Below are positions 42,874 to 63,482 of a stretch of 64,000 bases of DNA, piece after piece (position 1 is the stretch's first letter; each line of letters opens with the position of its first letter). The DNA is from Bathymodiolus brooksi (taxonomy: Eukaryota > Mollusca > Bivalvia > Mytilida > Modiolidae), in contig OY804580.1 of assembly GCA_963680875.1 (NCBI GenBank), positions 94,083,353 through 94,147,352 on the forward strand. The letters are read 5' to 3'. The notes below the pieces were generated by a model. That model saw nothing but the letters and a program-made list of their open reading frames with translations. It had not been told where the DNA came from and made no database searches. The position numbers were made by a program, and so were the translations under genes.

Positions 42874-42922
42874 CACGTGGGTTTTTTTTTCAAATAAATT
42901 CAACAAATAAACAAAACCTCAC

Positions 42923-43016
42923 CTTTTGACAAGTCTGTCTTGAGCTGGCCTTGGGAACTTTCGTCGATATCGGAGTCTTCTGATGTTGAATGTTCTCTTT
43001 CCTGTTGACTTTCATC
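42923..43016 (-). pseudogene. Duplicated exon-1 segment of the P2RX7_C-like gene (H1 copies)
   Basis: Encodes DESQQEREHSTSEDSDIDES then QGQLKTDLSK up to a GTGAGG donor at 42917-42922. It matches the genuine exon 1 up to DESSQ and then diverges with a net indel, so the phase does not give the W-C-x-C-G junction. It joins intron sequence AGCTTATG directly at 43017, the breakpoint of the 1.2-kb duplication. Near-identical copies lie at about 46948-47041 and 50907-51000. Confidence 0.75.
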
Positions 43017-44211
43017 AGCTTATGAAGGGTTTTACTATACTGTTGGGAAGTAAAGGAACAGATATGGAGCAAATGTCAATGAGAGAACATCCAATCTCCG
43101 AATTGACTGGCTGATCAAAAATAGACATATAGGTGGCCACACCATCTTCAACAAGCGGGACACCCCACAAAATACAGCAAGCCCTAAATGACCCCCAACA
43201 AAAAACAAAGTGGATCAGTGGCCAAAATACTAGAAAAAAAATTCAAACATGATTGAATACTGCCTCTAATCTAGAATGGAATTGAGAAGTAATTGATTCT
43301 TGTTGTCTCGAATACATTTAAGTCAACATTTCAGGTAACTCGAAAAAGTTTTCTGGATCTTCAACAGTAATTACTATGCAAATTTACCCCTGATGAATAC
43401 AATTACCAGCTGTGTATCCTATCCTGCCAGGTACCCATGCAAGATGTTTCTGTCAACTTGAAAGTGCCAGTAAAAACATTTCATTGTTTGAAATCAACAG
43501 GGAGCCACTTTACTCAGAACTTTCTTTAAAATTTCTGAAAACTTTTTGTAGAAATGTACGTAACATGCATAAATACAATGGTTAGTGTTGAGATTGGGTA
43601 CTCAGCCAGTAGACCTGACAACTCAAAAGAAATGTACCAACTTGCAGACTTGTTCAAGATATGCATAATATCAGTAATAGTATAAGCAAATATATAAAGT
43701 TGTGGGTTTTCTGGAAAAGAGGTTAATGCTTGAGCTGTTGTGGATTGTGGATTATTTGTTTGCTGCTTCATTTGAGTGAAAATAATGTTAAAATTACTCA
43801 ATGTTCTCTTTACCTGGGGGTCCTCTTTATATGGCAAGACTCACACTATCAGTATCAATATGGCTGTAGCACTAACAAATGTCAGATGGGCTTAAAAGTC
43901 TTAAAAATCTCTCCTGTTCGAAATGTGTCAGGGTTCATTTAATACATGTGCGAAGTAGAAAAAAAAGGGGACATATGAGACACTACGACAGTCATCTTTA
44001 TTCGTTAAAACTTTCGTAAATTGGGGGGGGGGGGGTTAAGATATCATCGTCAGTACAACCTGTTGACTTATGTTATTTCAGTTTTTCGTTCAATCCTGTT
44101 TTTTTTTTAAATTGTTTACAAATAAACAAAACCTCACCAGTCGGTGTTGACTAGTCTGTCCTGAGCTTGGGAACTTTCGTCGATATCGGAGTCTTCTGAT
44201 GTTGAATGTTC
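43017..44211 (-). repeat. Host repeat unit H2, first copy, with exon-1 piece
   Basis: Second 1.2-kb copy of the intron-1/exon-1 segment. 44138-44211 encodes the 3' part of exon 1 (HSTSEDSDIDESSQAQDRLV then NTD-W) with a GTGAGG donor at 44132-44137. It is cut by LTR A at 44212. Further H2 copies lie at about 47042-48235 and 51001-52194. None of the short ORFs in it is supported by motifs. Confidence 0.8.
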
Positions 44212-44398
44212 TGTAGTGAGTCGTGGGGGATGGGGGCCGAGGAGTTCTGAAAGGCACCCATGATGCACCACAAACTGACCACGCTTGCCATAACGAGATA
44301 TACCACAGAACAACCTAGAAGTGAAAAACCAAGAGACGTAAAAATCATCCGACTGAAATAGTGCAAGCTAGTAATAGTAAGTAGTGCTAATTACTATA
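44212..44398 (+). mobile_element. Gypsy 5' LTR, copy A
   Basis: 187 bp, TGTAGTGAGTCGTGGGG to TAATTACTATA, followed one base later by the primer-binding site TGGCGCTGCGACTAC. Almost identical to the LTRs at 48236, 52195 and 63190. Confidence 0.88.
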
Positions 44399-46843
44399 TT
44401 GGCGCTGCGACTACCTACAAGTCGAATCCTATTCGCGAGAAAGGTTATTAAATTAACCAAAAGCGATTTTTAAGTAAAATCACAACTCCGCCATTTAATT
44501 TGATTTTTTTTAGGGGGCAATTTTTTTTTCTTTGGTTTCAGTTTTGCCTGGCTAATAGGACCTGGTATTTTCAGGGGAAATTGTCCGTTAGGAAATTTTA
44601 AGGGAAGATATGCAGGTAGGATTGGCAGAAAAAATTGGAAATCTTTAAATTTTTTGCCCGTTCAATGAAGTACCCCTTTCCCACCCACGTGTAGACCCCA
44701 CGTGTAAATTTTTTTGTTTTTTTGTTTTGTTCTAATGTTGTAGGGCTGATAGGACCTGGTGTTTTCAGGGGAAATTGTCCGTTAGGAAATTTCAAGGGAA
44801 GATACGCAGGTAGGATTGGCAGACAAAATTGGAAATCTTTAAATTTGTTGCCCGTTCAAAGAAGTACCCCTTTCCCACCCACGTGTATACCCCACCACGT
44901 GTTTAAGCAAGCACGTGTATTCCCCAAATGTGAACCCCAAACCGGAAGCAGCTTGTTTCTAGAAGCCATCTTTAAATAAAAGCTGGTTAAAGATAAGTTG
45001 GAAGTCCGGTGTCCCCAATAAATTTATTTTTTTTGTTTGACATTATCGATTTTAAACAAAAGTAGACAAAAGCCTCCCAGTGTAAAAATCTGGTCCACTT
45101 AAAAATTGTACATACACGCATACACCAGAATAAAGAGCCACGTGGTTTTGTTGTTTATTTTTTATTAACAATGCCGCGTGTTTTCATTAACAATTGTTCC
45201 ATCGAGGAGCTGATGTCAGTACCAGGGATAGGGGCGAAGGGGGCCGATGAAATTTTGGAATTAAGGGAGGCAAAGGGTGATCTGGAACTGGATGATCTAA
45301 ATCAGGTTCCATATCTTAGGATAACACAACCGTTACTGGATTGTTTGGATTTTACCTCTTTTGAAAATAAAGAAGGAGTGGGATCCCTGTATGATCGGCA
45401 TAGAGAAAGGGTTAGGAGCGTTGACAAGTTAATAGGGAAGTGGGATGGGACAGGACAGGGCCAAGTTAAAGGAAGGGGGAAGGATATGGGTTCATTTGAT
45501 AAAGTCCCGTTAACAGGGGGAAAATCATATTATAATAAACAGGAAGGGGATTGGTGGCAACAGGCCAATTTACCCGACAGATTGAATGATGATTATAGTG
45601 AGATGGAAAGTACTTTCATGGAAAGACAAACCCCAGGGGGAGTTAAATATACATCAGCTCCGGGACAATATCCGCGCCATCAGTTCGTCGAACGCGACCG
45701 GACGATTTGAATTGGGATTCGAGCATCGATGAGAGGGATCGGGCGTATATGCAAAACGTGCATATAAGAGACTCGGATATTCGTGCGGATTATGCGTTCC
45801 CTAGAGAACCAGGCCTTTTTCATAGTGGGGTTTTAGCCGGTGGGGGAGGGGGGGGGTCTGAAGTAAGAGTGCCAAACATACGAACTGTAGCCACGGCTAA
45901 TAGAGAAAGCGTTTGGCAAGACAGGGGGGCCGCTATTCCCCTCCGAGGAACACCGGAGGGGGGTGGAGCAGGGAAAATACTAACCCCTTGATGAGGGAGA
46001 GTAGAGGTAGAACAAGACATACCCTAGGAAGGGAAAATGAAGTCCCTAGAATAGTTCAACGTAGAGATGAGTATGATAGGGAGAGGGAAAGGGGACAATA
46101 CCGCCCAAGTGGGGAAGACATTGGAAGCCCAGGAGGAAGAAACCCATCTATTCCTAGGTTATAGAGTAGTGGGAACAGGCCTGGGTGTCCCCCCAGAAGA
46201 GAACCCGAAAATCCTAGCGATTATGCAAGAAGGGAGGAGTATGAAGGGGAGAGAGGTCAAAGGGGAAGGGGGAAGAGTGTTTGTTTGCCGATGTCCTTAA
46301 AGTTTGATGGTAAATCAAATTTGAAAGCATTCTATGCAAAATTTTCCCGTTATGCGGAAGTTAGTTAGTGGACAGAAGGGGAATGCAGGGACCAGTTATG
46401 CTGGTGCCTGGATGGGAAAGCAAGTGAATACTATGCCCTCCTGGTTGAGCGAAACCAGGAAATGGTATATATGGACCTAATACGGAAACTAGAAAAAAGG
46501 TTTGGTTTCCGAGAACTCCCCGAAACGGCCCAGGTCCAACTTAATAATGCCCGTCAGACTCCGGATGAACTCCTGGAGGACTGGGCGGATCGGGTCTTAT
46601 CCCTAGCCACTAGGGCATTTAGAGATTTGCTTGAAACTCACATGTATCAACAAGCAGTGGTGAGGCTATGCCAAGGGGCAGCGGATAAAGAGGCCGGGAG
46701 TTATGCCTCTAATATCCGACCTAAAAACATAGAGGAGGCTATTGGTAAAATGAGGTGGTTCCAACATAATTATCAGGCTATATTTGGGACCACCCTTGGG
46801 CGTAATCCTCGAAGGGAGGTGAAACAAGTATCCCCAGGGCCTC
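44399..46843 (+). mobile_element. Truncated Gypsy 5' half, tandem copy 1
   Basis: Leader, ORF1 (45171-45710) and the gag capsid region (last frame 46462-46842), ending abruptly at CCAGGGCCTC within gag and joined to host repeat sequence GATATCATCAGTAC. ORF1 carries the helix-hairpin-helix motif. This copy has about 56 nt (45805-45860, with a poly-G run) absent from copies 2 and 3. It shares the frameshift near 45705 and the TAG in gag (46366) with the other copies, so those breaks predate the tandem duplication. Confidence 0.85.
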
Positions 46844-48235
46844 CAGGATATCATCAGTACAACCTGTTGACTTATATTATTACAGTTTTTCGTTCAATCA
46901 CGTGGGTTTTTTTTTCAAATAAATTCAACAAATAAACAAAACCTCACCTTTTGACAAGTCTTTCTTGAGCTGGCCTTGGGAACTTTCGTCGATATCGGAG
47001 TCTTCTGATGTTGAATGTTCTCTTTCCTGTTGACTTTCATCAGCTTATGAAGGGTTTTACTATACTGTTGGGAAGTAAAGGAACAGATATGGAGCAAATG
47101 TCAATGAGAGAACATCCCATCTCCGAATTGACTGGCTGATCAAAAATAGACATATAGGTGGCCACACCATCTTCAACAAGCGGGACACCCCACAAAATAC
47201 AGCAAGCCCTAAATGACCCCCAACAAAAAACAAAGTGGATCAGTGGCCAAAATACTAGAAAAAAAATTCAAATATGATTGAATACTGCCTCTAATCTAGA
47301 ATGGAATTGAGAAGTAATTGATTCTTGTTGTCTCGAATACATTTAAGTCAACATTTCAGGTAACTCGAAAAAGTTTTCTGGATCTTCAACAGTAATTACT
47401 ATGCAAATTTACCCCTGATGAATACAATTACCAGCTGTGTATCCTATCCTGCCAGGTACCCATGCAAGATGTTTCTGTCAACTTGAAAGTGCCAGTAAAA
47501 ACATTTCATTGTTTGAAATCAACAGGGAGCCACTTTACTCAGAACTTTCTTTAAAATTTCTGAAAACTTTTTGTAGAAATGTACGTAACATGCATAAATA
47601 CAATGGTTAGTGTTGAGATTGGGTTCTCAGCCAGTAGACCTGACAACTCAAAAGAAATGTACCAACTTGCAGACTTGTTCAAGATATGCATAATATCAGT
47701 AATAGTATAAGCAAATATATAAAGTTGTGGGTTTTCTGGAAAAGAGGTTAATGCTTGAGCTGTTGTGGATTGTGGATTATTTGTTTGCTGCTTCATTTGA
47801 GTGAAAATAATGTTAAAATTACTCAATTTTCTCTTTACCTGGGGGTCCTCTTTACATGGCAAGACTCACACTATCAGTATCAATATGGCTGTAGCACTAA
47901 CAAATGTCAGATGGGCTTAAAAGTCTTAAAAATCTCTCCTGTTCGAAATGTGTCAGGGTTCATTTAATACATGTGCGAAGTAGAAAAAAAAGGGGACATA
48001 TGAGACACTACGACAGTCATCTTTATTCGTTAAAACTTTCGTAAATTTGGGGTGGGGGGTTAAGATATCATCGTCAGTACAACCTGTTGACTTATGTTAT
48101 TTCAGTTTTTCGTTCAATCCTGTTTTTTTTTAATATTGTTTACAAATAAACAAAACCTCACCAGTCGGTGTTGACTAGTCTGTCCTGAGCTTGGGAACTT
48201 TCGTCGATATCGGAGTCTTCTGATGTTGAATGTTC

Positions 48236-48422
48236 TGTAGTGAGTCGTGGGGGATGGGGGCCGAGGAGTTCTGAAAGGCACCCATGATGCACCACAAACT
48301 GACCACGCTTGCCATAACGAGATATACCACAGAACAACCTAGAAGTGAAAAACCAAGAGACGTAAAAATCATCCGACTGAAATAGTGCAAGCTAGTAATA
48401 GTAAGTAGTGCTAATTACTATA
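48236..48422 (+). mobile_element. Gypsy 5' LTR, copy B
   Basis: 187-bp LTR identical by eye to copies A and C over most of its length, with the same primer-binding site after one base. Confidence 0.88.
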
Positions 48423-49189
48423 TTGGCGCTGCGACTACAAGTCGAATCCTATTCGCGAGAAAGGTTATTAAATTAACCAAAAGCGATTTTTAATTAAAAT
48501 CACAACTCCGCCATTTAATTTGATTTTTTTTAGGGGGCAATTTTTTTTTCTTTGGTTTCAGTTTTGCCTGGCTAATAGGACCTGGTATTTTCAGGGGAAA
48601 TTGTCCGTTAGGAAATTTTAAGGGAAGATATGCAGGTAGGATTGGCAGACAAAATTGGAAATCTTTAAATTTTTTGCCCGTTCAATGAAGTACCCCTTTC
48701 CCACCCACGTGTAGACCCCACGTGTAAATTATTATTTTTTTTTTTTTTGTTCTAATGTTGTAGGGCTGATAGGACCTGGTGTTTTCAGGGGAAATTGTCC
48801 GTTAGGAAATTTCAAGGGAAGATACGCAGGTAGGATTGGCAGACAAAATTGGAAATCTTTAAATTTGTTGCCCGTTCAAAGAAGTACCCCTTTCCACCCA
48901 CGTGTATACCCCACCACGTGTTTAAGCAAGCATGTGTATTCCCCAAATGTGAACCCCAAACCGGAAGCAGCTTGTTTCTAGAAGCCATCTTTAAATAAAA
49001 GCTGGTTAAAGATAAGTTGGAAGTCCGGTGTCCCCAATATATTTATTTTTTTTGTTTGACATTATCGATTTTAAACAAAAGTAGACAAAAGCGTCCCAGT
49101 GTAAAAATCTGGTCCACTTAAAAATTGTACATACACGCATACACCAGAATAAAGAGCCACGTGGTTTTGTTGTTTATTTTTTATTAACA

Positions 49190-49729
49190 ATGCCGCGTGT
49201 TTTCATTAACAATTGTTCCATCGAGGAGCTGATGTCAGTACCAGGGATAGGGGCGAAGGGGGCCGATGAAATTTTGGAATTAAGGGAGGCAAAGGGTGAT
49301 CTGGAACTGGATGATCTAAATCAGGTTCCATATCTTAGGATAACACAACCGTTACTGGATTGTTTGGATTTTACCTCTTTTGAAAATAAAGAAGGAGTGG
49401 GATCCCTGTATGATCGGCATAGAGAAAGGGTTAGGAGCGTTGACAAGTTAATAGGGAAGTGGGATGGGACAGGACAGGGCCAAGTTAAAGGAAGGGGGAA
49501 GGATATGGGTTCATTTGATAAAGTCCCGTTAACAGGGGGAAAATCATATTATAATAAAAAGGAAGGGGATTGGTGGCAACAGGCCAATTTACCCGACAGA
49601 TTGAATGATGATTATAGTGAGATGGAAAGTACTTTCATGGAAAGACAAACCCCAGGGGGAGTTAAATATACATCAGCTCCGGGACAATATCCGCGCCATC
49701 AGTTCGTCGAACGCGACGGGACGATTTGA
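49190..49729 (+). pseudogene. Gypsy ORF1 (HhH protein), copy B
   Basis: Same 179-residue frame as the copies at 45171 and 53150, with Q125 changed to K in NKKEGDWW and D-R to D-G near the end. A partial gag frame follows (50421-50802), closed by the junction to host sequence. The element is cut before pol, so this is a dead duplicate. Confidence 0.8.
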
Positions 49730-50803
49730 ATTGGGATTCGAGCAGCGATGAGAGGGATCGGGCGTATTTGCAAAACGTGCATATAAGAGACTCGGATATT
49801 CGTGCGGATTATGCGTTCCCTAGTAAGAGTGCCAAACATACGAACTGTAGCCACGGCTAATAGAGAAAGCGTTTGGCAAGACAGGGGGGTCGCTATTCCC
49901 ATCCGAGGAACACCGGAGGGGGTGGAGCAGGGAAAATACTAACCCCTTGATGAGGGAGAGTAGAGGTAGAACAAGACATACCCTAGGAAGGGAAAATGAA
50001 GTCCCTAGAATAGTTCAACGTAGAGATGAGTATGATAGGGAGAGGGAAAGGGGACAATACCGCCCAAGTGGGGAAGACATTGAAGGCCCAGGAGGAAGAA
50101 ACCCATCTATTCCTAGGTTACAGAGTAGTGGGAACAGGCCTGGGTGTCCCCCCAGAAGAGAACCCGAAAATCCTAGCGGTTATGCAAGAAGGGAGGAGTA
50201 TGAGGGGGAGAGAGGTCAAAGGGGAAGGGGGAAGAGTGTTAGTTTGCCGATGTCCTTAAAGTTTGATGGTAAATCAAATTTGAAAGCATTCTATGCTAAA
50301 TTTTCCCGTTATGCGGAAGTTAGTTAGTGGACAGAAGGGGAATGCAGGGACCAGTTATGCTGTTGCCTGGATGGGAAAGCAAGTGAATACTATGCCCTCC
50401 TGGTTGAGCGAAACCAGGAAATGGTATATATGGACCTAATACGGAAACTAGAAAAAAGGTTTGGTTTCCGAGAACTCCCCGAAACGGCCCAGGTCCAACT
50501 TAATAATGCCCGTCAGACTCCGGATGAACTCCTGGAGGACTGGGCGGATCGGGTCTTATCCCTAGCCACTAGGGCATTTAGAGATTTACCTGAAACTCAC
50601 ATGTATCAACAAGCAGTGGTGAGGCTATGCCAAGGGGCAGCGCATAAAGAGGCCGGGAGTTATGCCTCTAATATCCGACCTAAAAACATAGAGGAGGCTA
50701 TTGGTAAAATGAGGTGGTTCCAACATAATTATCAGGCTATATTTGGGACCACCCTTGGGCGTAATCCTCGAAGGGAGGTGAAACAAGTATCCCCAGGGCC
50801 TCC

Positions 50804-52194
50804 AGGATATCATCAGTACAACCTGTTGACTTATATTATTACAGTTTTTCGTTCAATCACGTGGGTTTTTTTTTCAAATAAATTCAACAAATAAACAAAA
50901 CCTCACCTTTTGACAAGTCTTTCTTGAGCTGGCCTTGGGAACTTTCGTCGATATCGGAGTCTTCTGATGTTGAATGTTCTCTTTCCTGTTGACTTTCATC
51001 AGCTTATGAAGGGTTTTACTATACTGTTGGGAAGTAAAGGAACAGATATGGAGCAAATGTCAATGAGAGAACATCCCATCTCCGAATTGACTGGCTGATC
51101 AAAAATAGACATATAGGTGGCCACACCATCTTCAACAAGCGGGACACCCCACAAAATACAGCAAGCCCTAAATGACCCCCAACAAAAAACAAAGTGGATC
51201 AGTGGCCAAAATACTAGAAAAAAAATTCAAATATGATTGAATACTGCCTCTAATCTAGAATGGAATTGAGAAGTAATTGATTCTTGTTGTCTCGAATACA
51301 TTTAAGTCAACATTTCAGGTAACTCGAAAAAGTTTTCTGGATCTTCAACAGTAATTACTATGCAAATTTACCCCTGATGAATACAATTACCAGCTGTGTA
51401 TCCTATCCTGCCAGGTACCCATGCAAGATGTTTCTGTCAACTTGAAAGTGCCAGTAAAAACATTTCATTGTTTGAAATCAACAGGGAGCCACTTTACTCA
51501 GAACTTTCTTTAAAATTTCTGAAAACTTTTTGTAGAAATGTACGTAACATGCATAAATACAATGGTTAGTGTTGAGATTGGGTACTCAGCCAGTAGACCT
51601 GACAACTCAAAAGAAATGTACCAACTTGCAGACTTGTTCAAGATATGCATAATATCAGTAATAGTATAAGCAAATATATAAAGTTGTGGGTTTTCTGGAA
51701 AAGAGGTTAATGCTTGAGCTGTTGTGGATCGTGGATTATTTGTTTGCTGCTTCATTTGAGTGAAAATAATGTTAAAATTACTCAATTTTCTCTTTACCTG
51801 GGGGTCCTCTTTACATGGCAAGACTCACACTATCAGTATCAATATGGCTGTAGCACTAACAAATGTCAGATGGGCTTAAAAGTCTTAAAAATCTCTCCTG
51901 TTCGAAATGTGTCAGGGTTCATTTAATACATGTGCGAAGTAGAAAAAAAAGGGGACATATGAGACACTACGACAGTCATCTTTATTCGTTAAAACTTTCG
52001 TAAATTTGGGGTGGGGGGTTAAGATATCATCGTCAGTACAACCTGTTGACTTATGTTATTTCAGTTTTTCGTTCAATCCTGTTTTTTTTTAATATTGTTT
52101 ACAAATAAACAAAACCTCACCAGTCGGTGTTGACTAGTCTGTCCTGAGCTTGGGAACTTTCGTCGATATCGGAGTCTTCTGATGTTGAATGTTC
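50804..52194 (-). repeat. Host repeat H1 part and H2, third copy
   Basis: Has the uninterrupted CACGTG target at 50858-50863. 52121-52194 is the exon-1 3' piece directly next to the full-length Gypsy element: codons HSTSEDSDIDESSQAQDRLV then NTD plus TG, and donor GTGAGG at 52115-52120. With 63377-63482 it makes the complete original exon 1. Confidence 0.8.
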
Positions 52195-52381
52195 TGTAGT
52201 GAGTCGTGGGGGATGGGGGCCGAGGAGTTCTGAAAGGCACCCATGATGCACCACAAACTGACCACGCTTGCCATAACGAGATATACCACAGAACAACCTA
52301 GAAGTGAAAAACCAAGAGACGTAAAAATCATCCGACTGAAATAGTGCAAGCTAGTAATAGTAAGTAGTGCTAATTACTATA
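52195..52381 (+). mobile_element. Gypsy 5' LTR, copy C (of the full element)
   Basis: 187 bp, TGTAGTGAG...ATTACTATA. Very short for a Gypsy LTR. The single T/C difference from the 3' LTR indicates recent insertion or gene conversion. Confidence 0.9.
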
Positions 52382-52382
52382 T

Positions 52383-52397
52383 TGGCGCTGCGACTAC
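52383..52397 (+). promoter_or_regulatory. Primer-binding site
   Basis: TGGCGCTGCGACTAC, starting with the TGG that pairs with a tRNA CCA end, one base after the LTR. The first ten bases resemble the 3' end of a tRNA-Ser, but the tRNA identity is a guess. Confidence 0.65.
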
Positions 52398-53149
52398 AAG
52401 TCGAATCCTATTCGCGAGAAAGGTTATTAAATTAACCAAAAGCGATTTTTAAGTAAAATCACAACTCCGCCATTTAATTAGATTTTTTTTAGGGGGCAAT
52501 TTTTTTTTCTTTGGTTTCAGTTTTGCCTGGCTAATAGGACCTGGTATTTTCAGGGGAAATTGTCCGTTAGGAAATTTTAAGGGAAGATATGCAGGTAGGA
52601 TTGGCAGAAAAAATTGGAAATCTTTAAATTTTTTGCCCGTTCAATGAAGTACCCCTTTCCCACCCACGTGTAGACCCCACGTGTAAATTTTTGTTTTTTT
52701 TTGTTTTGTTCTAATGTTGTAGGGCTGATAGGACCTGGTGTTTTCAGGGGAAATTGTCCGTTAGGAAATTTCAAGGGAAGATACGCAGGTAGGATTGGCA
52801 GACAAAATTGGAAATCTTTAAATTTGTTGCCCGTTCAAAGAAGTACCCCTTTCCCACCCACGTGTATACCCCACCACGTGTTTAAGCAAGCACGTGTATT
52901 CCCCAAATGTGAACCCCAAACCGGAAGCAGCTTGTTTCTAGAAGCCATCTTTAAATAAAAGCTGGTTAAAGATAAGTTGGAAGTCCGGTGTCCCCAATAA
53001 ATTTATTTTTTTTGTTTGACATTATCGATTTTAAACAAAAGTAGACAAAAGCCTCCCAGTGTAAAAATCTGGTCCACTTAAAAATTGTACATACACGCAT
53101 ACACCAGAATAAAGAGCCACGTGGTTTTGTTGTTTATTTTTTATTAACA
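52398..53149 (+). repeat. Gypsy leader with 195-bp tandem duplication
   Basis: ATAGGACCTGGT(A/G)TTTTCAGG...CCCGTTCAA(T/A)GAAGTACCCC occurs at about 52526 and 52721. The same duplication is in all three copies. Short ORFs here are by-products. TTAACA-ATG (53150) starts ORF1. Confidence 0.8.
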
Positions 53150-53689
53150 ATGCCGCGTGTTTTCATTAACAATTGTTCCATCGAGGAGCTGATGTCAGTA
53201 CCAGGGATAGGGGCGAAGGGGGCCGATGAAATTTTGGAATTAAGGGAGGCAAAGGGTGATCTGGAACTGGATGATCTAAATCAGGTTCCATATCTTAGGA
53301 TAACACAACCGTTACTGGATTGTTTGGATTTTACCTCTTTTGAAAATAAAGAAGGAGTGGGATCCCTGTATGATCGGCATAGAGAAAGGGTTAGGAGCGT
53401 TGACAAGTTAATAGGGAAGTGGGATGGGACAGGACAGGGCCAAGTTAAAGGAAGGGGGAAGGATATGGGTTCATTTGATAAAGTCCCGTTAACAGGGGGA
53501 AAATCATATTATAATAAACAGGAAGGGGATTGGTGGCAACAGGCCAATTTACCCGACAGATTGAATGATGATTATAGTGAGATGGAAAGTACTTTCATGG
53601 AAAGACAAACCCCAGGGGGAGTTAAATATACATCAGCTCCGGGACAATATCCGCGCCATCAGTTCGTCGAACGCGACCGGACGATTTGA
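53150..53689 (+). CDS. Gypsy ORF1: N-terminal helix-hairpin-helix protein
   Basis: 179 residues from ATGCCGCGTG. Residues 4-55 read VFINNCSIEELMSVPGIGAK then GADEILELREAKG and LDDLNQVPYL. This is a ComEA/PsbU-type helix-hairpin-helix (I-N-x-A/C-x-x-E-E-L-x-x-x-P-G-I-G), a sequence-independent DNA-binding fold. The rest is Gly/Asp/Arg-rich and disordered-looking, like a matrix or linker region. It ends at TGA 53687-53689. A reading frame starting at 53686 continues the same style (DSSIDERDRAY), so it was probably the N-terminus of gag before a one-base change. An HhH at the gag N-terminus is unusual. The three copies are almost identical. Confidence 0.72.
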   Translation: MPRVFINNCSIEELMSVPGIGAKGADEILELREAKGDLELDDLNQVPYLRITQPLLDCLDFTSFENKEGVGSLYDRHRERVRSVDKLIGKWDGTGQGQVKGRGKDMGSFDKVPLTGGKSYYNKQEGDWWQQANLPDRLNDDYSEMESTFMERQTPGGVKYTSAPGQYPRHQFVERDRTI

Positions 53690-55115
53690 ATTGGGATTCG
53701 AGCATCGATGAGAGGGATCGGGCGTATATGCAAAACGTGCATATAAGAGACTCGGATATTCGTGCGGATTATGCGTTCCCTAGTAAGAGTGCTAATAGAG
53801 AAAGCGTTTGGCAAGACAGGGGGGTCGCTATTCCCCTCCGAGGAACACCGGAGGGGGGTGGAGCAGGGAAAATACTAACCCCTTGATGAGGGAGAGTAGA
53901 GGTAGAACAAGACATACCCTAGGAAGGGAAAATGAAGTCCCTAGAATAGTTCAACGTAGAGATGAGTATGATAGGGAGAGGGAAAGGGGACAATACCGCC
54001 CAAGTGGGGAAGACATTGAAAGCCCAGGAGGAAGAAACCCATCTATTCCTAGGTTACAGAGTAGTGGGAACAGGCCTGGGTGTCCCCCCAGAAGAGAACC
54101 CGAAAATCCTAGCGGTTATGCAAGAAGGGAGGAGTATGAGGGGGAGAGAGGTCAAAGGGGAAGGGGGAAGAGTGTTAGTTTGCCGATGTCCTTAAAGTTT
54201 GATGGTAAATAAAATTTGAAAGCATTCTATGCTAAATTTTCCCGTTATGCGGAAGTTAGTTAGTGGACAGAAGGGGAATGCAGGGACCAGTTATGCTGGT
54301 GCCTGGATGGGAAAGCAAGTGAATACGATGCCCTCCTGGTTGAGCGAAACCAGGAAATGGTATATATGGACCTAATACGGAAACTAGAAAAAAGGTTTGG
54401 TTTCCGAGAACTCCCCGAAACGGCCCAGGTCCAATTTAATAATGCCCGTCAGACTCCGGATGAACTCCTGGAGGACTGGGCGGATCGGGTTTTATCCCTA
54501 GCCACTAGGGCATTTAGAGATTTACCTGAAACTCACATGTATCAACAAGCAGTGGTGAGGCTATGCCAAGGGGCAGCGGATAAAGAGGCCGGGAGTTATG
54601 CCTCTAATATCCGACCTAAAAACATAGAGGAGGCTATTGGTAAAATGAGGTGGTTCCAACATAATTATCAGGCTATATTTGGGACCACCCTTGGGCGTAA
54701 TCCTCGAAGGGAGGTGAAACAAGTATCTCCAGGGCCTCACTACGGGGTAGAGGCCAGGGTGTGCGCAATAGGGACTGATCGGGTTATAGATAAGAGTTTG
54801 GAGAAAAAAATGGGAGAAGTACTGTCGGCACAGGGGAAAGAAATGAGTGAGATAAAGTCCAACATAGCGGCAATTTCCACTCAAATGGCAGCCATTATGG
54901 AGGAGGTGAAGAGAAATCGAATAGATAGGTATAGAGCACAATCACGAAGTCCATCCCCCAGAAAGGGGGATAAACAGGGATGCTTCCACTGTGGGGCCAT
55001 TGGACACTTCAAGAGGGAGTGCCCAAGGTTGTGGTCTCCGACAGGGGTGAAACGAGTGTCATTTCAGGAAAATAAGGAGGCTTTAAACTCCAAAGGGGCA
55101 ACTCGCCAGACTTGA
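53686..55115 (+). pseudogene. Gypsy gag: capsid and zinc knuckle
   Basis: Frames from 53686 and 53808 give an Arg-rich linker (RERERGQYRPSGED). The capsid region has SLKFDGK, NLKAFYAKFSRYAEV, then LIRKLEKRFGFREL, TPDELLEDWADRVLSLA and RQVVRLC-type helices, matching the retrotransposon gag capsid. Near the end CFHCGAIGHFKREC is a C-x2-C-x4-H-x4-C zinc knuckle. Two stops lie in the capsid: TAA at 54210-54212 (this copy only) and a TAG near 54259 shared by all three copies. The end overlaps pol by four bases in the -1 frame, the usual layout for frameshift expression of Gypsy pol. Confidence 0.82.
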
Positions 55116-55972
55116 GCCAACCCCTTATCGCCAATATACATGGTCTCAAAGAAGTAAAAGAGGGGGGAGAAGTAGATATGGAGGAAAAGAATCAGCAGGA
55201 TAGGCTCCTAGGGGTAAATCCGGAGGGACGGGTAAAATTTGAAGGTGCGAGTCAGGGGTACGAGTTCTCAAGTGAGGAGTCAGAAGGGGAGGAAAACAAT
55301 AGGGAAGTAGAAGACGACCCTCCGGATTCTAGTAGTCCGGAGGGACGGGTCAAATCTGAAGGTGCGAGTCGGGGGTATGAGTTCTCAAGTGAGGAGTCGG
55401 AAGGGGAGGAAAACAATAGGGAAGTCAAGGACAACCCTCTGGATTCTATTAGTCCGGAGGGACGGGTCAAATGTGAAGGTGAGAATCAGGGGTATGAGTC
55501 AGTAGGGAAGGAAAACAATAGGGATAAGAGGGACACGGACGAGTCCATAGAGGAGGAGGAAAAGGGGGTAGAGGATAATATAGGGAATTGTGTTACGGAT
55601 GAGGAAGAGGACGGAGCAGTAACGGTGCTCAAGCTGTCCAATGGGGTAATGTTTAGGGTCCCAGTAGAGGTACAAGGCATGCAGTTACAAGCTGTAGTAG
55701 ATACAGCAGCACAGGTAACACTGGTGTCCGAGGAATTCTACAAATCATTGGACCCTGCCCGACCAATCCGTAAGGATGTGGTTATGAACACCGCAGGGAA
55801 GGGAATGCAGATGAATGGGTATATTGCTGGCCCTTTTCAGGTAGTCCTAGGGACACATCTATTCGCAGTAGAAATCTACGTGGTCCCAATAGAGGAGGAT
55901 ATGTTACTGGGTTTAGACTTTTTAGAGGCTAATGGGGTGTCCCTACATCTCAAAAAAAGGAACTACAGATAG
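55112..55972 (+). pseudogene. Gypsy pol N-terminus: repeat linker and aspartic protease
   Basis: Residues 1-130 are an acidic linker with three tandem units of about 39 residues (SPEGRVKxEGAxxGYEFSSE). The retropepsin follows: VPVEVQGMQLQAVVDTAAQV then TLVSEEFY. The catalytic D-T-A is present and the second conserved region (EDMLLGLDFLEANGVSLHL) is intact. The frame then shifts near 55965 into the RT frame. The protease itself has no stop. Acidic repeats between nucleocapsid and protease are not standard and may be dispensable. Confidence 0.8.
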
Positions 55973-55989
55973 CAGGGGATGTTATATCC

Positions 55990-57760
55990 ATGAGTTTGGG
56001 AACAGGGAGTCCGTTAGTCAATGAGAAAGAGACGGGGGTGTTCCTAGCAAAGGGGTGTAAGGTACCGCCTAATTCAGTCATGAGAGTGGGGGCACAGCTG
56101 AGTGAGTCTATGGCAGGGGAGTATATAGTAAAGGCAGCCACAAAGGGTGAGATACTAATACCTCGGACATTGCACAATGGGGGTGATAATCCAGTGCTTT
56201 GTTTGATTAACCTATCCGATCACTATGTAGAAGTAGGAAAGGGGGAAGTATTGGCCTATGCCGAGGAGGTGTGTTCGAACGTGGAGCCCATCGGAATACA
56301 AAAAGTAGAGGTTGCGGAACAGGAGGGTCCAGAGAATGGAAAAAGGGAAATTCCCGAGCATTTGATTAATCTCTTTGATAAATGCAAAGGGGAGCTGAAT
56401 GAGCAGGAGCAGACACAGTTTAGTGAGTTATTATGCGGGTTTGAAGATGTGTTTGCTAAAAGTGAGTTTGACTTAGGGAAATTTAATACAATCCAGCATG
56501 GGATTGATACTGGGACCAATCGCCCAGTTAAACAAAAAATCAGGCGTACCCCATTAGGGCTTGCAGGAGAAGAAGAGGCCCAATTAAAGAAAATGTTGAG
56601 TGCGGGGGTGATCCGGCCATCAGTGTCTGAGTGTGCATCGGCTCCGGTTCTTATCAGGAAACGATGTGGGTCAGTACGGTGGTGTGTGGATTACAGGGCC
56701 TTAAATGCTCTCACCATTAAGGATGTGTTCCCATTGCCCCTAGTGGACGAGTGTCTTGACACTTTAGCCGGGAATGTATGGTATTCCAAACTGGATGCCA
56801 ATTCAGCATATTGGCAGGTGAAAATCAAACCTGAAGACTGCTCCAAAACGGCATTTATTACTAAATACGGGTTGTTTGAGTTCGCTAGAATGGCTTTTGG
56901 GTTATGTAACTCACCAGCCACTTATACGAGAGTCATCAACCTGATGCTGAGGATTTGAATTGGAAAGTGGTTCTGGCTTTCCTGGACGATATCGTGGTCC
57001 TGGGGAAGGATTTCGAGGGGCACTTGGCCAACCTACGGGCTGTATTGGTTAGGTTTAGGGAGTATGGGCTAAAATTGAAGCCCAAAAAATGTGAACTGTT
57101 TCAAAAGGAAGTGGAGTTCCTGGGTAGAGTAGTGGGACCTAGAGGAATATACATTGGGCCAGGATATATCAAAGAAAAAAAAAAAACTGGCCAAGGCCTA
57201 AGAATAAAAAGGAGGTGGAGAGGTTTTTGGGGTTCACCAATTACCATAGAGCCTTTATTGAAGAATATACTCAAATGGCGTTTCCCCTTCAGGCCCTAAC
57301 AGGGAAACGTACATATCAATGGGGAGATGAACAGGAAAAGGCGTTTGATGAGTTGAGGAATGCAATGGTGAGAGCACCAGTTCTAGCCCTGCTAATGCGA
57401 CTGATCCCTTTATACTGGATACGGATGCATCCGATAAATCGGTGGGGGCTGAATTGATTCAAATACAAGAGGGAGAAGAGAGGGCAGTAGCGTACGGGAG
57501 TCTTACCTTGACTCCGGAGCAACAAAAATACTGCACCACTCGAAAGGAATTATTATCAATTATTAGGTTCTCTCGACAGCTTAGGCATTACTTGCTGGGT
57601 AGGCATTTTACGGTCAGGACAGACCATAATAATCTGACCTGGCTGATGAATTTTAAGGAGCCACAGGGGCAACTGGCTAGATGGTTAGAAGAACTTAGTC
57701 AGTTCAATATGTAAATCCAGCATAGGCCTGGGAAGAAACATACGAATGCAGATGCCTTGT
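55990..57760 (+). pseudogene. Gypsy reverse transcriptase and RNase H
   Basis: RT: IQHGIDTGTNRPVKQKIRR (start), MLSAGVIRPSVS, VRWCVDYRALNALT, then YSKLDANSAYWQVKI with catalytic Asp. After a one-base shift near 56953, VLAFLDDIVVLGK carries the F-L-D-D active site. FLGFTNYHRAFIEEY is the connection. RNase H: FILDTDASDKSVGAEL-type sequence at 57410-57455 (across a shift), RKELLSIIRFSRQLRHYLLG and TDHNNLTWLMNF. A TAA at 57712-57714 interrupts before HRPGKKHTNADALSR. A poly-A run at 57175-57186 marks another shift. All catalytic motifs are visible but the frame is broken at least four times. Confidence 0.88.
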
Positions 57761-57803
57761 CAAGGATCCCTGGGGGGAACCATGTTCAGACTTCAATCTA
57801 AGA

Positions 57804-59250
57804 GTGAAATTACAGGATTTGCCATGTTGGGGGTGTCCCTACTGTACTAGGGCCCATTTAAACTGGTCCGGTTTTGACCAGGATGTAGATGACGTGGTTC
57901 CCTTGGCAAATAAACCTTGGGGTCAACCCGTGAGTGAGGGTCAAGACCAGGAGGAAAAAGAAATGGGACCTAGGGTGGCGGAGATCTGGGTCTCTACGGG
58001 GGAAGCGGGAAATAGACTTAGATGGGAAAGTATCAAGGGAGTCCAAATAGTTCGAGAGGCAGAGGGCATTAGTTTTCAAGGCCCAGGTGAGGACGAAATG
58101 AAGGAACAGCAACGGGTGGACCCCGAATTAGCCTGGGTGGTCAAGTGGAGGGAGACAGGGGAGGAGCCCACTGAAGGAGAATTGTTTATAGGGGACTCTA
58201 GAAGCAAATATTATTGGATAAACAGGGAAGTTTTTGTCTTGGAAAAAGGGGTCCTGTGGAGAGAAGGGGATGAGGGGAAGTCAGCAAGGAGGGTGGTCCC
58301 AAAGATGTACAGGGAACAAATTGTGAAGCTTTGTCACGATCCCCCCTTAGCTGGACATCAGGGCATAGAAAGGACAATCGAGAAAGTGAAGTCTAGGTAT
58401 TATTGGAGGGGGATAAGTAAAGATGTGTCGGCTTACGTGAAAGGGTGTATGGAGTGTAACCAAAATAAGAAGGCAACGGTCTCAGCTAGACACCCAATGT
58501 TATCCTATCATTCAGGATCGCCAATGGAACGGGTCCATTTAGACTTGAATCAGTTCTTTTCTAGATTTGGGTGCCCATTCCAAGTATTCACTGATCAGGG
58601 GAGGAATTTTGAGTCTTCTTTGTTCAGGGAAATGTGTGAATTACTTCACATACATAAATCGAGAACTACCCCTTACCGTCCCTCGGCGAACGGACAAGTA
58701 GAGCGATGCAATCGTACACTGATGGCGGCGGTGCGGTGTTTCATTGGAAAAAATTAGCGAAGCTGGGATCAATACTTACCGCAGTTGGCAGGGGCATTAA
58801 GGTCCTCTGTAAATAGAAGCACAGGGTACACACCCAATATGATGATGTTGGGTAGGGAGATTGGGTTGCCTGCGGAACTAATGTTCGGGAGTCCGGGGAA
58901 CACCGGACAGCCCGAAGGGGACCAATACGTAGGGGAGTTGCAAACAGCTATTGAAGGGGCCCACAGGGTAGCTAGGGAAACTCTCAAACAATCCCAAAAA
59001 CGAATGAAGAGAGATTATGATGTCAAGGTGAGTGTCAAGGAGTTAAAACTGGGGGATTTGGTGTATCAGTTGGACACTGCTACTGTTAAGTGAAAAACTC
59101 GAAAATTGAGTCCCTCGTGGAAAGGCTTCGGAGTGGTAATTGAAAAGTTGACCTCCTATCTCTATTAAATAAAGTTAAAGCGGGTGATAATCACCGCTAA
59201 CCACGATAGGTTGAAGTTATGTCAAGACCGCGAGGTTCCAGGGTGGGCCC
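57804..59250 (+). pseudogene. Gypsy integrase, core domain partly deleted
   Basis: The zinc domain is present: LCHDPPLAGHQGIERT and YYWRGISKDVSAYVKGCMEC. The core starts ERVHLDL and jumps directly to NQFFSRFGCPFQVFTDQG, so roughly 50 residues after the first catalytic Asp are missing. The second Asp (FTDQGRNF) and the Glu (NGQVERCNRTL) are there. A TAG at 58755-58757 and a TGA at 59091-59093 interrupt the C-terminal half (VNRSTGYTPNMMMLGREIGL). LSPSWKGFGVVIEKLTSYLY is a GPY/F-like module. The core deletion makes this integrase inactive, so recent movement needed an enzyme supplied in trans or the lesion is younger than insertion. Confidence 0.85.
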
Positions 59251-59312
59251 AAGAACTGAGTCAACAAATCATTAAGGGGACAGGATATACCAAGGAGAAG
59301 GGGGCGTCAAAG

Positions 59313-59508
59313 ATCAACGGGGGAATTTATTGTGTGTTAAAAGCCATACACTGGGGAGTTCATGATCAGGTGCGATGAGTGCAAAGAATGGTATCATGGT
59401 GAATATGTAAGGGTAACACAGGAAGAGGCAGAGGCCATGGGAGATTTTGTCTGCTCGGGGTGTCAGACATCCCCGGGAGAAGGTATAGTGCAGTGGGGGA
59501 AGTATTAG
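59313..59508 (+). pseudogene. PHD finger at the C-terminus of Gypsy pol
   Basis: In the frame starting at 59362: MIRCDECKEWYHGEYVRVTQ, EEAEAMGDFVCSGCQ. This is the second half of a PHD finger (C-D-x-C-x-x-W-Y/F-H...W/F-V/Y-C-x-x-C). The first half lies just upstream in the integrase frame as IYCV followed by a two-base deletion, after which K-P-Y-T-G-E-type sequence can be read. It follows the GPY/F-like module directly, where other Gypsy elements carry a chromodomain. PHD fingers read histone H3 tails, so it may target integration; this is inference. It ends TAG at 59508. Confidence 0.75.
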
Positions 59509-59653
59509 GGGCTCTGGGGGGAGGGGGCATAATGACAGTGTTTCGGGAGAAGAGGGGAAGGCCAGGTATGCCCATAGGGCATATAATTCTGACCTGCCTG
59601 GCGCAGGGTGGCTATAAGCCCCCGTGTCAGGTGGATTATTTAATCTCTTTCAG
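59509..59653 (+). promoter_or_regulatory. Spacer ending in a splice acceptor before ORF3
   Basis: TTATTTAATCTCTTTCAG ends at 59653, immediately before ATG 59654. A pyrimidine tract and AG directly in front of the start codon suggest ORF3 is translated from a spliced RNA, as retroviral and errantivirus env genes are. Confidence 0.55.
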
Positions 59654-60749
59654 ATGTCACAACAGGAAGAAGATGTGTTGTCGCTGGAGGATAGCGGGAG
59701 CGAGTGCTTTGATACAGCGGAGGCAGGCTCATCAGCTGATGAGATGGAAGACTGCCTGTCCGCTGTATCAGAGGGGGTGGCGGTGGCAGAGGTCACGGGC
59801 CCACCCAGTAGTAAGGTACCGGCAGGGGCGGAGGCCCCGGGTAGTGAGGGGATGATCGATTCTCCGGGCCGTACGGTCCGGAGATAGAAGAATAAAGGAA
59901 GGAGCCGATATGGGCCTGGCCGGCTAGAGCGCCGTAAGCGGCAGGCCCTAAGTTCCAGGGGGTCTGTACAAGGGGAAACCGGAGAGGAACCGGAGTCATC
60001 AGGGAGCTCCTCCGGTGAGAGGTGTCCTATGGAGGGGTGTGGGGAGTGGGTCACTGACCTCAGGGGGCACTGTGTACAGGCACATATTCCTGGGGTTTTC
60101 CGGGATTTGGGGTGCACGGGGGAGGATATTGGGAGGGTCAGAGCGTCTGCATTGCAGACGATCCTGAGAGTCCTTGGGGGATAAGGGGGGGCCTATTTGG
60201 TTATGTGGCAGGGCTACTGAGTACCATCGGGTGCCTGGAGGGCCATAATGTGAAGCCGGTGGAGGTGGCGGTTATGAGGGAAGTGTGTAGGGTAAGGGGA
60301 TGGGAGATTCCTTCGGAATTCTCCTTGAACCCCCCTAACTCTCCAGCTGTTTTGATACACTGGAGAGCCCTCATAGAGCTATTGGGGCTCATGCCTGCCC
60401 CAAGAAGAGAAGCATTATGTAGCCTCCGGTTCCCGGTGGTCAGTAGTCGGGGGTCTGGAAGTTCAGGGGAACCTCCGGTTGTAAAGCCGGAGGAACCCAT
60501 GGACTGGTCCCATGAGGGGATGGGCAGTGGAGGTTCAGTGGGGAGGGTACCCGCTGAGGGGTAGAGAGGACCATCACAAGTCTCGGCGACGAGAGCTGGT
60601 TGGTTTCCTGTACCTCGGCCAGTGCCTCTCTTCAGTTTGAAGCCAGTGCCGTCTCCTCATCTGGTCGGTTGGAGTAGGGGTGCCCCTCAGCCAGTGGCTG
60701 GAGGGTGTAGGGAAGAGGACAGCCAGGTTAGGAGAGAATCTCCGGTCCT
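59654..60749 (+). pseudogene. Gypsy ORF3 N-terminal half: acidic region, C2H2 finger, helical domain
   Basis: Starts MSQQEEDVLSLEDSGSE, an acidic Ser-rich region. After a TAG (59885-59887) in the same frame comes a basic stretch (GRLERRKRQ) and a finger CPMEGCGEWVTDLRGHCVQA with H (C-x4-C-x-n-H-x4-H). A shift near 60180 leads to a helical region with IPSEFSLNPPNSPAVLIHWR then ALIELLGLMP, a stretch I recall next to TatD domains in other invertebrate repeat proteins. A TAG at 60562-60564 interrupts the linker to the TatD domain. No signal peptide or membrane segment is seen, so this is not an envelope gene. Confidence 0.6.
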
Positions 60750-61586
60750 GATTCCGGATGCTATGGATTCACATATGCATCTGGACAGGTCTCTCCGGAG
60801 GCTGAGAATGGACCCCCGTATGGGGATCCAGGAACTCCTGGCTAGGCGTCCAAGGCCCGCCTCTAATCAGGAGATCAACGTGGTGGGGGTGTGTTGGTCT
60901 ACTGTGACCCTAAGACGTGGCCTGAAGACCCAGAGAGGCTAAATCTCCCCGAGGGATGGTTTATAGCAGTGGGAGTTCACCCCAAGTACGCATTGGATTT
61001 TGGCGATTATTATTTTGATCGCCTATCCAAGCTGTTGGATTCTCCGGCTGTGACCGCCTTGGGGGAGGTGGGGATTGATTGTAGTGAAGGAGCAAAGCCC
61101 TTCGGAATACAATCGAGTACTTTGAAGTGGATGTTGGGGCTGGCTCGGCCGTATATGCCTCTGGTGTTTCACATCCGGGCCTCGGGGGATAGCCCCCAGG
61201 CAACGGATGCGTTATACCGGGAGGTATTGGGCCTGACGCTGGACAAAGTCCCCAACACCCTGCAAAGTATTCATCTCCATTGTTTCAATGGGGATGAGGC
61301 CACATTTAAACTCTGGGCGGACGCCTACCCTTGAACCTACTTTGGGTTCTCGAGTATGGTGAAGGGGTTTGGCGACCGACAGAGACGGGGGCTCAAAGCC
61401 GTACCAGGGAACAGGCTCCTCTTGGAGTCTGACTCTCCTCATCTCCCCGATGTGGCCGGTTCCATCAACCACCCGGCTCATTTGTTCAGGGTGGCGGAGG
61501 AGGTCGCTCGGGTGAGGGGTCAGTCTCCTTTGGATATCCTGCGGGCAGGTATTGCCAATGGGCAGGCTTTGTACCGGAGGAAGTAG
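60750..61586 (+). pseudogene. TatD-family metal-dependent nuclease domain in the Gypsy env position
   Basis: TatD enzymes are TIM-barrel metal-dependent DNases. All ligand motifs are present in order: DAMDSHMHLD (H-x-H), AVGVHPKYA, TALGEVGIDCS (Glu), MPLVFHIRASGDS (His), SIHLHCFNGD (His), LLLESDSPHLPD (Asp). The end (PLDILRAGIANGQALYRR) matches the last helix of the family. The length, about 275 residues, is normal. A frameshift near 60885 and a TGA at 61332-61334 break it. A two-ORF copy with every active-site residue intact suggests the source element encoded a working nuclease until recently. A role in processing cDNA or integration intermediates is inference. Confidence 0.85.
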
Positions 61587-61871
61587 TGAGATTGGCCCAA
61601 AGGGGAGAGTTTCAGATGACAGAGAGAGGAGTAGGTGTTCGATGGTGACAGGTAGTGTATGGGGGAACATGGCTACATATTTTTGGGGACTCCTTGGGGT
61701 TGACGGTTGTATTCAAGTGTTCGATGGTAACAGGTGGTGTATGGGGAAACATGGATATATATTTTTGGGGACTCCTTGGGGTTGATGGTTGTATTCAAAT
61801 GTTTGGAGGTGTGAGGACATGACTGCTGCTTTGTGTTTTTCCATTATTTGCCTATCATATTTAGTTCCAAG
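61587..61871 (+). repeat. Gypsy 3' UTR: 82-bp tandem duplication
   Basis: GTGTTCGATGGT(G/A)ACAGGT...GGGGACTCCTTGGGGTTGA occurs twice in tandem (about 61636-61717 and 61718-61799). Confidence 0.8.
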
Positions 61872-62312
61872 TGGTGAGATTTGTTCTGCTAAATATTTCA
61901 CCTTTGGTTGGTCCAGTGGTTAGATTTGTTCTGCTAAATATTTCACCTTTGGTTGGTCCAGTGGTGAGATTTGTTCTGCTAAATATTTCACCTTTGGTTG
62001 GTCCAGTGGTGAGATTTGTTCTGCTAAATATTTCACCTTTGGTTGGTCCAGTGGTGAGATTTGTTCTGCTAAATATTTCACCTTTGGTTGGTCCAGTGTT
62101 GGGATTGGTTCGGCCCAATATTTCACCTCTGGTGGGTTCAGTGGTGAGATTTGTTCTGTTTAATATTTCACCTCTTGTGGGTTCATTGGTGAGCTTGGTT
62201 CTGCATCTTAAACCGGTGTGATATTGTCCAACTGTTCTGCATCTTAAACCTGTGCGATAGTATCCAACTTTTCTGCATCCTAAGCCTAGGTGATATTGTC
62301 CTACTTTTCTGC
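61872..62312 (+). repeat. Gypsy 3' UTR minisatellites
   Basis: Seven to eight 45-bp units (GTGGTGAGATTTGTTCTGCT plus AAATATTTCACCTTTGGTTG) to about 62210, the first five nearly identical. Then three 37-bp units (GTGTGATATTGTCCAACTGT...GCATCTTAAACC) follow. Because 45 is divisible by three, ORFs read through on both strands, but they are by-products. Confidence 0.9.
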
Positions 62313-63189
62313 AGCATGTCCTTTGTTTGTCCTCACTCTCCTTTCACCATACAACGACTTGTCTTTTGGGCAGGGGTCCTCGGCAGAGGGTCATTTGTGG
62401 GGGTGTTTCCTTGGGGAAGTCGAGTCGGGTCTTTAAATGGATCTCTGGGTTGGTCCAACCATGGCAGTGATGTATTTGTTCTTCAACGGTTCTTGGGCAT
62501 CCTTTTGAAGAAAAATGGCCGCCATTGTCTTTAGGGACAAAAGTCTACGCTCCCCGTCTTCATTTGGTCATGGAGACTGGGAGGTAGATATATGGATGAT
62601 GTCCAACTTTTCTTGTGTTTGGGGGCAGAAATCTGCTCTTGGTCTTCATTGTTTGTCTGTTTGTTATTGTTTGATTTTTCAGTGGCCTATTTCCTTTTTG
62701 TCCTTCCCCCTTATTCCTCCATTCGACAGTTTGTCCTTTGGATGGGGGTCTCCGCTCTTCGTTCCTGGCATGGTCTTGGGGAAAGTTTTTTCTGGGAAAA
62801 TGGGTCTCTTGCGGGGATCTACTTATCATAAAAAGTATATTGGGTCTCTGAACTGATTTACTCATTAAAAAAAAAATAATAAAAAATAATGGGGGGAAGG
62901 GATGTTGTGGATAAGGTGGAGAAGGGGGATATCGAAGTGGATGGTTGGTGCGTTGTGGGTATGGGGAGTGTCACAGGGTCGGGTGTGGAGCATGCACAGT
63001 TTGCTGGTCTTGTGATTCCTGGGGACGCGGTCCCATGGATATCGAAAGCTTAGGTCTTGTGGAGGCTTTGACCGCCTCTTGTGAGCCCTAGGGTGATTTT
63101 TGGATTTGTTATTACATCCAGGGTGGCCCTTTGTTTTTGGGGGTTACTCAGTGGCTGACCAGGGACCTTTAAAATAAAACGGGGAGGAG
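62313..63189 (+). other. Gypsy 3' UTR with diverged duplication and polypurine tract
   Basis: 62316-62520 and 62690-62870 are diverged copies (TTTGTCC...CAACGACTTGTCTTTTGGGC versus CGACAGTTTGTCCTTTGGAT). It ends AAAATAAAACGGGGAGGAG at the 3' LTR, a polypurine tract for plus-strand priming. No coding motif is recognised. Confidence 0.65.
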
Positions 63190-63376
63190 TGTAGTGAGTC
63201 GTGGGGGATGGGGGCCGAGGAGTTCCGAAAGGCACCCATGATGCACCACAAACTGACCACGCTTGCCATAACGAGATATACCACAGAACAACCTAGAAGT
63301 GAAAAACCAAGAGACGTAAAAATCATCCGACTGAAATAGTGCAAGCTAGTAATAGTAAGTAGTGCTAATTACTATA
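63190..63376 (+). mobile_element. Gypsy 3' LTR, copy D
   Basis: 187 bp, one substitution relative to the 5' LTR at 52195 (GAGTTCCG versus GAGTTCTG). Followed by GTTC, the target duplication. Confidence 0.9.
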
Positions 63377-63482
63377 GTTCTCTTTCCTGTTGACTTTCAT
63401 CATTGCATAATGGCTCGAACTGATACGACTGGATGTCTAAATCACCAACATGATCGGAGATATTGCTGTCATCACTGTCCAT
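63377..63482 (-). pseudogene. P2RX7_C-like gene, exon 1, 5' part with start codon
   Basis: From ATG at 63480-63482: MDSDDSNISDHVGDLDIQSY, QFEPLCNDESQQERE, then the LTR boundary. The frame continues across the Gypsy insertion at 52190 downwards (HSTSEDSDIDESSQ) to the donor. The last two bases TG plus the first base of exon 2 give the Trp of the expected W-C-x-C-G motif. An acidic Ser-rich N-terminus with I-Q-x-Y-x-F-E-P is what stand-alone P2RX7_C proteins show. About 34 kb now separate this start from exon 2 (28817). Confidence 0.75.

Follow-up and report, generated by a model that had tools for sequence, protein, structure and literature searches.

A predicted TatD-family nuclease gene in the env position of Ty3/Gypsy retrotransposons of the bivalve Bathymodiolus brooksi

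The stretch of DNA analysed in this study (the window) comprises 64,000 nucleotides (nt) of the bivalve Bathymodiolus brooksi (assembly GCA_963680875.1, contig OY804580.1, positions 94,083,353 to 94,147,352 of the forward strand), and our subject is a region related to TatD nucleases within a Ty3/Gypsy retrotransposon at 52195-63376. The order of genes and domains in this element is gag, protease, reverse transcriptase (RT), RNase H, integrase, PHD finger, TatD region, tandem repeats and 3' long terminal repeat (LTR) (Table 1). The two 187-nt LTRs differ by one mismatch (99.5% identity), GTTC stands as a 4-nt target duplication on both flanks of the element, and the empty target sequence is present elsewhere in the window. 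An earlier note, made from the letters of the window alone, had placed the TatD sequence inside the LTRs in the env position, and these boundaries agree with it.

The TatD region (59654..61586) consists of an acidic N-terminal part, a C2H2 finger (about 60023-60085, located from the translation), a middle domain and a TatD domain (about 60760-61583). The Pfam profile PF01026 matched the domain in two pieces, 60867-61331 (E 9e-14, 51.9 bits) and 61335-61583 (E 2.9e-10, 40.4 bits), both above the cut-off of 27 bits, and a fold search covering the TatD part alone recovered the TatD barrel; a chance resemblance to TatD was rejected on the Pfam profile and the fold search. The middle domain, which is conserved, had no match in Pfam, and no match to the viral structure library was found at E 1e-3. 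All six metal ligands were present, as the earlier note had read them, and they are those of a class II enzyme, HxH plus E, H, H and D (class defined in PMC10085689). The same note had described one open reading frame (ORF) with a C2H2 finger and a TatD domain. Both finger and domain are there, but not in one ORF, as the reading is cut by stops at 59885, 60562 and 61332 and by at least two frame changes. The PHD finger was found where it had been described, directly after the C-terminal module of the integrase (PF00628, 33.2 bits at 59341-59505, cut-off 24), with its first zinc ligands just upstream in another frame. Since pol, PHD finger and TatD are all broken in this copy, evidence of a functional gene comes from the rest of the genome and would not be seen in the window by itself.

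Searches of the genome used the assembly from which the window comes (2.0 Gb, 136 contigs). The earlier note had named TatD sequence restricted to this one copy as an outcome against it, and this did not occur: the TatD piece of the window gave 123 match rows, a lower bound, seven of them with stop-free frames of 651 amino acids (aa). The 123 rows are not a copy count, because more than one row came from some copies, and host TatD exons may account for the weakest matches. Identity to the window piece was as low as 28-41% among the copies, and the Pfam TatD profile gave 150 scored matches in the assembly, including further open frames of ~650 aa which the window piece had missed. The top PF01026 match (239 bits, 262 aa) lay on contigs C101 and C125 of this assembly (G000) and is perhaps bacterial sequence in the assembly.

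Twenty stretches around the matches were examined, drawn from the 123 and picked for long frames and diversity, not at random. Pol lay upstream of TatD on the same strand in all 20, the PHD finger lay between them in 19 (the exception being L027), and the LTR of the window was recognised downstream of TatD in 10. Contamination, or an LTR insertion into a host TatD gene, was rejected because pol adjoins TatD in 20/20 examined stretches. The 5' side was examined in four further elements, and in three of these paired LTRs flanked by a 4-nt target duplication enclosed the TatD sequence (LTRs of 180 nt at 100%, 289 nt at 99% and 287 nt at 96% identity); no LTR pair was found in the fourth, L024. 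In the copy L010 the pol frame is intact, and Pfam read it in the order protease, RT, RNase H and integrase, with an intact PHD finger that has C4HC3 zinc ligands (PF00628, 39.4 bits); TatD (PF01026) scored 106 bits in this copy. The lineage of L033 and L034 (G000:C16:43676720-43681020) has an integrase and an intact TatD domain without a PHD match, which indicates that the association of TatD with the PHD finger is not obligatory.

The TatD gene is under purifying selection, the absence of which was the second outcome that the earlier note had named against it. The ratio of nonsynonymous to synonymous substitution rates (dN/dS), which the earlier note had proposed as a check, was taken against one open frame as reference for eight diverged copies of the family, the window included, and was 0.14-0.21 for the TatD domain in seven of the eight comparisons. 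It was 0.17-0.38 for the N-terminal part of the TatD ORF (eight copies), 0.08-0.26 for RT (seven copies) and 0.06-0.33 for integrase (eight copies). Ratios are restricted to copies within the family, synonymous sites being saturated between lineages. The six metal ligands were complete in 18 of 21 rows, and one further row was not covered at HxH. TatD distances were correlated with those of RT (r = 0.97) and of integrase (r = 0.94) over 14 rows, with a permutation p of 0.0001 that ignores relatedness within groups. The trees showed the same deep groups, L027 and L028 being long-branched in the TatD tree. That the TatD gene is encoded by the element, as the earlier note had claimed from its placement, is strengthened beyond that argument by the upstream pol in every stretch and by the purifying selection. 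Judged from these sequences, we regard it as almost certain that the gene belongs to the element, is maintained by selection and is of a nuclease family.

Two protein searches for TatD relatives in other hosts found 29 and 33, with two common to both; the second scored only the 7994 candidates that shared most words. Relatives named by their source came from the bivalves Mercenaria, Ruditapes, Mactra, Pecten and Mytilus and from the brachiopod Lingula, and one (P0167) was labelled TATDN2 by its source. The C2H2 finger and the middle domain preceded TatD in nine aligned relatives. In P0028 TatD occurred together with a retroviral-type protease, which at 28.0 bits was slightly below the cut-off of 28.2. 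P0067, a pol with PHD finger, and P0165, a TatD protein, each come from a contig with a length of 2098719 and probably share one contig, although their adjacency was not seen. Scans of genome contigs and viral contigs with single proteins found no relative. Five proteins filed under Candidatus Thiodiazotropha genomes (P0074, P0107, P0115, P0137 and P0160) were Gypsy pol or TatD-ORF proteins, and they are probably clam host DNA in symbiont bins. Another protein, P0017, combined a TatD fragment with a PF03184 (DDE_1) domain, which probably reflects the insertion of a transposon into a TatD element.

The earlier note had also stressed the PHD finger on pol. It is present, but it is not special to this element: among the best 120 of 590 pol relatives, a motif search found it at the C-terminus of pol in 97 and not in the other 23, and Pfam matches read by eye gave 99. 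The PHD finger as a unique feature was accordingly rejected, as it is common in this pol clade.

The sequence before the TatD gene resembles a 3' splice site. The earlier note had reported an acceptor-like sequence abutting the ATG at 59654, and TTTCAG stands directly 5' of it both in the window and in all five sister copies that were compared (L009, L010, L011, L012 and L017). Pol and TatD occupy separate frames in three intact copies of the family (L009, L010 and L017), where TTTCAG adjoins the TatD ATG. In three other lineages (the L021 group, L028 and L033) a YAG lies 2-39 nt 5' of the first TatD ATG without an intervening ATG, and in L025, which belongs to the L021 group and has a different start, the YAG lies 7 nt before the ATG; L019, L020 and L027 were left out of this survey of acceptors. 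In the L021 group the last part of pol contains the TatD ATG. As for donors, the leader of the window's family has two donor-like sites, CAGGTAGGA, with a score of 8.4, L032 has one at 8.2, and L030 has none above 7.8, all scores without comparison with chance. Because a 3' splice-site-like sequence stands just before the ATG and the frame is separate from pol in the window's family, we suggest that the TatD protein would be made from a spliced subgenomic RNA, like env. Expression by splicing is plausible but unproven.

In errantiviruses and other env-bearing Gypsy elements, the third gene lies between integrase and the 3' LTR behind a splice-acceptor-like site. The TatD gene shares this position and this kind of site, but where those elements encode a membrane glycoprotein, it encodes TatD with a C2H2 finger, and by hydropathy no clear membrane segment was seen in 17 TatD-ORF proteins, four of them being marginal. 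To our knowledge, no TatD ORF occurs in chromoviruses. These resemble the present lineage in that a histone-reader-type module ends the Gypsy integrase, with the difference that the module is a chromodomain there and a PHD finger here. The Ginger1 DNA transposons likewise join a Gypsy-type integrase to extra C-terminal domains, with a PHD finger in one family; they differ in being DNA transposons with the PHD on the transposase and Ulp1 or OTU instead of TatD (PMC2836005). Class II TatD proteins (TATDN2, E. coli YcfH and YjjV, human TATDN3) have the same fold and the same HxH plus E, H, H and D, and TATDN2 also has a long N-terminal extension. They differ from the protein described here, which is encoded by a retrotransposon and whose extension carries a C2H2 finger and a conserved middle domain.

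The closest parallel is in the bdelloid rotifer elements Vesta and Juno, where the third ORF, in the env position, is a DEDDy exonuclease; these ORFs are reported to have intact catalytic residues, to be expressed from spliced messages and to show no significant departure from neutrality (PMC5408684). In both systems an LTR retrotransposon carries a nuclease gene third in order, at the place of env. They differ in that TatD does not have the RNase D-like DEDDy fold, in the host phylum, and in the low dN/dS found here in seven of eight comparisons. Pfam matched PF01026 alone in the ORF of L010 and in P0021, P0013 and P0008, and the DEDDy exonuclease domain was not found in these four. The earlier note had held that a nuclease in this place implies that reverse transcription or integration has acquired a new function; this needs correction, being an inference. 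Enzymes in the env position, a nuclease included, were already reported from bdelloid rotifers (PMC5408684). What is new here is a captured enzyme ORF of another family with clear selection, enzyme ORFs in LTR elements being already known. No published report of TatD in an LTR element was found, subscription papers and Repbase entries being beyond the reach of the search. The TatD-like wording in PMC5408686 concerned a TATDN2 retrocopy and that in PMC7545183 a wheat gene name, and the accessible parts of PMC3286476 and PMC10294476 held nothing on TatD or PHD in elements. As far as the literature searched shows, this would be the first TatD nuclease of a retroelement.

On balance, we favour the reading that a Ty3/Gypsy lineage carries its own class II TatD nuclease, which acts on nucleic acids of the element. 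Between pol and its 3' LTR the lineage has acquired a gene of its own, which has been maintained through long divergence. The gene encodes a protein that joins a C2H2 finger to a metal-dependent nuclease domain of class II (HxH), and this protein would work in the nucleus or in the particle. Retroviruses and LTR elements finish their cDNA with RT, RNase H, integrase and host repair. The likeliest job of TatD may lie at this step, as processing or repair of the cDNA: trimming of 3' ends, incision at abasic sites, or clearance of RNA from RNA:DNA hybrids before integration. We propose this job tentatively, and we know of no case of an accessory nuclease that finishes or repairs cDNA in retrovirus-like elements. 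The PHD finger on the integrase would direct insertion to H3K4me3 chromatin. With greater reserve, the lineage might be pictured as a lophotrochozoan Gypsy group in which an obligatory TatD nuclease finishes or repairs the cDNA before the PHD-integrase inserts it. If true, a conserved and selected nuclease of the DNA-repair type would let the element perform in-house a step of cDNA finishing that is otherwise left to the host, or would serve to counter a host defence directed at cDNA or RNA. Few enzymes are known in the env position, and this one would lengthen their list; a family with many copies and recent amplification makes the question testable by biochemistry and RNA sequencing.

Several observations weigh against the reading that TatD is a nuclease with the element's nucleic acids as its substrate. 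Long frames and diversity guided the choice of the 20 stretches. The dN/dS of the TatD domain was 0.54 in L015 and 0.63 in two near-identical copies, the latter with too few changes to judge. One metal ligand each was substituted in two of the 21 rows, both with a broken pol. Between lineages TatD diverges faster than RT (0.58-0.79 versus 0.36-0.53, five representatives), which suggests that its role may be less constrained. The donor-like sites of the leaders reach no more than 7.8-8.4, donors and acceptors were not set against chance, and the best donor-like site of L029 (10.1) lies inside gag, beyond the leader. Finally, a role directed at the host would give an identical sequence picture.

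Such a host-directed role is the alternative that survives best, and we consider it unlikely. Instead of serving cDNA synthesis, TatD would then break down host nucleic acids by which the element is held in check (small RNAs, antiviral intermediates or R-loops at the element's promoter) or counter DNA damage signalling of the host. The separate gene in an accessory position and the divergence that is fast relative to RT, as in conflict genes, would fit this, and TATDN2 has been described as a structure-specific RNase on R-loops that is expressed in germ cells (PMC12709183). However, selection in the family is purifying and not positive, no host target is known, and a pairing with pol that has been kept over deep divergence fits a core role equally.

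It is improbable that the TatD domain is now non-catalytic and serves in nucleic-acid binding or in structure, as a chaperone, in the particle, in transport or perhaps in an env-like way. The customary hydropathy threshold for a membrane segment is 1.6. In 17 TatD-ORF proteins the top 19-residue mean was 0.75-1.67, and the four at or above 1.6 had their peaks in the middle domain or the TatD core. Against a non-catalytic role stand the six ligands kept in 18 of 21 rows, among copies that diverged so far, and the lack of a clear membrane segment by this measure. The finger and the conserved middle domain in the nine aligned relatives would suit such a role, and enzymatic third ORFs have been suggested as env substitutes (PMC5408684).

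That each lineage took TatD from its host independently is very improbable: the PHD-less lineage of L033 and L034 has a TatD ORF as well, but the same finger and middle domain stand before TatD in nine divergent relatives, and the distances of TatD and pol are correlated at 0.94-0.97. A host TatD gene captured once by chance and carried neutrally, for which the broken window copy and the common capture of genes by transposable elements would speak, is extremely improbable and was rejected, being contradicted by a dN/dS well under 1, by the seven copies whose frames stay open over 651 aa, by the presence of TatD in several divergent lineages and by a divergence that tracks pol.

Table 1. Features of the Ty3/Gypsy element in the window (window coordinates).
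Feature	Position	Strand	Remarks
Target site duplication GTTC, left	52191..52194	.	Matches 63377-63380; uninterrupted target near 42985 and 50965
5' LTR, 187 nt	52195..52381	+	99% to 63190-63376
Candidate primer-binding-site position (TTGGCGCTGCGACTACAAG)	52382..52400	+	Adjoins 5' LTR; identical letters after the 5' LTR of L029 (C1 element)
gag, not one open frame	53150..55112	+	N-terminal helix-hairpin-helix (53159-53293), capsid-like part, CCHC zinc knuckle
pol: protease, RT, RNase H, integrase	55076..59090	+	Several frames, broken
PHD finger, C-terminus of pol	59326..59463	+	PF00628; frame-shifted, one Cys-to-Tyr
Putative splice acceptor (pyrimidine-rich run and CAG)	59639..59653	+	Adjoins ATG
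TatD region, env position	59654..61586	+	Stops, frame changes; domain layout taken from relatives
Tandem repeats, TatD to 3' LTR	61635..62249	+	82 nt x2; 45-nt unit
Polypurine tract AAAACGGGGAGGAG	63176..63189	+	Purine-rich run likewise abuts the 3' LTR in three other elements
3' LTR, 187 nt	63190..63376	+	Pairs with 52195-52381
Target site duplication GTTC, right	63377..63380	.	Matches left copy

In the remaining parts of the element, the N-terminus of gag matched the helix-hairpin-helix profile PF12836 with 33.6 bits at 53150-53293 (53159-53293 in Table 1), the CCHC knuckle (zf-CCHC, 54978-55025) was above its Pfam cut-off, and PNMA was slightly below its own. The same PF12836 domain was observed in P0147, an intact gag-pol with a PHD finger. 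The integrase showed its H2C2 and C-terminal modules, and its core was matched over the later half only. Upstream, a unit of ~4 kb made of target flank, 5' LTR, leader and the start of gag is present three times head to tail at ~99% identity (42873-45804, 46898-49823 and 50857-53783), which is either a tandem duplication or an artefact of assembly.
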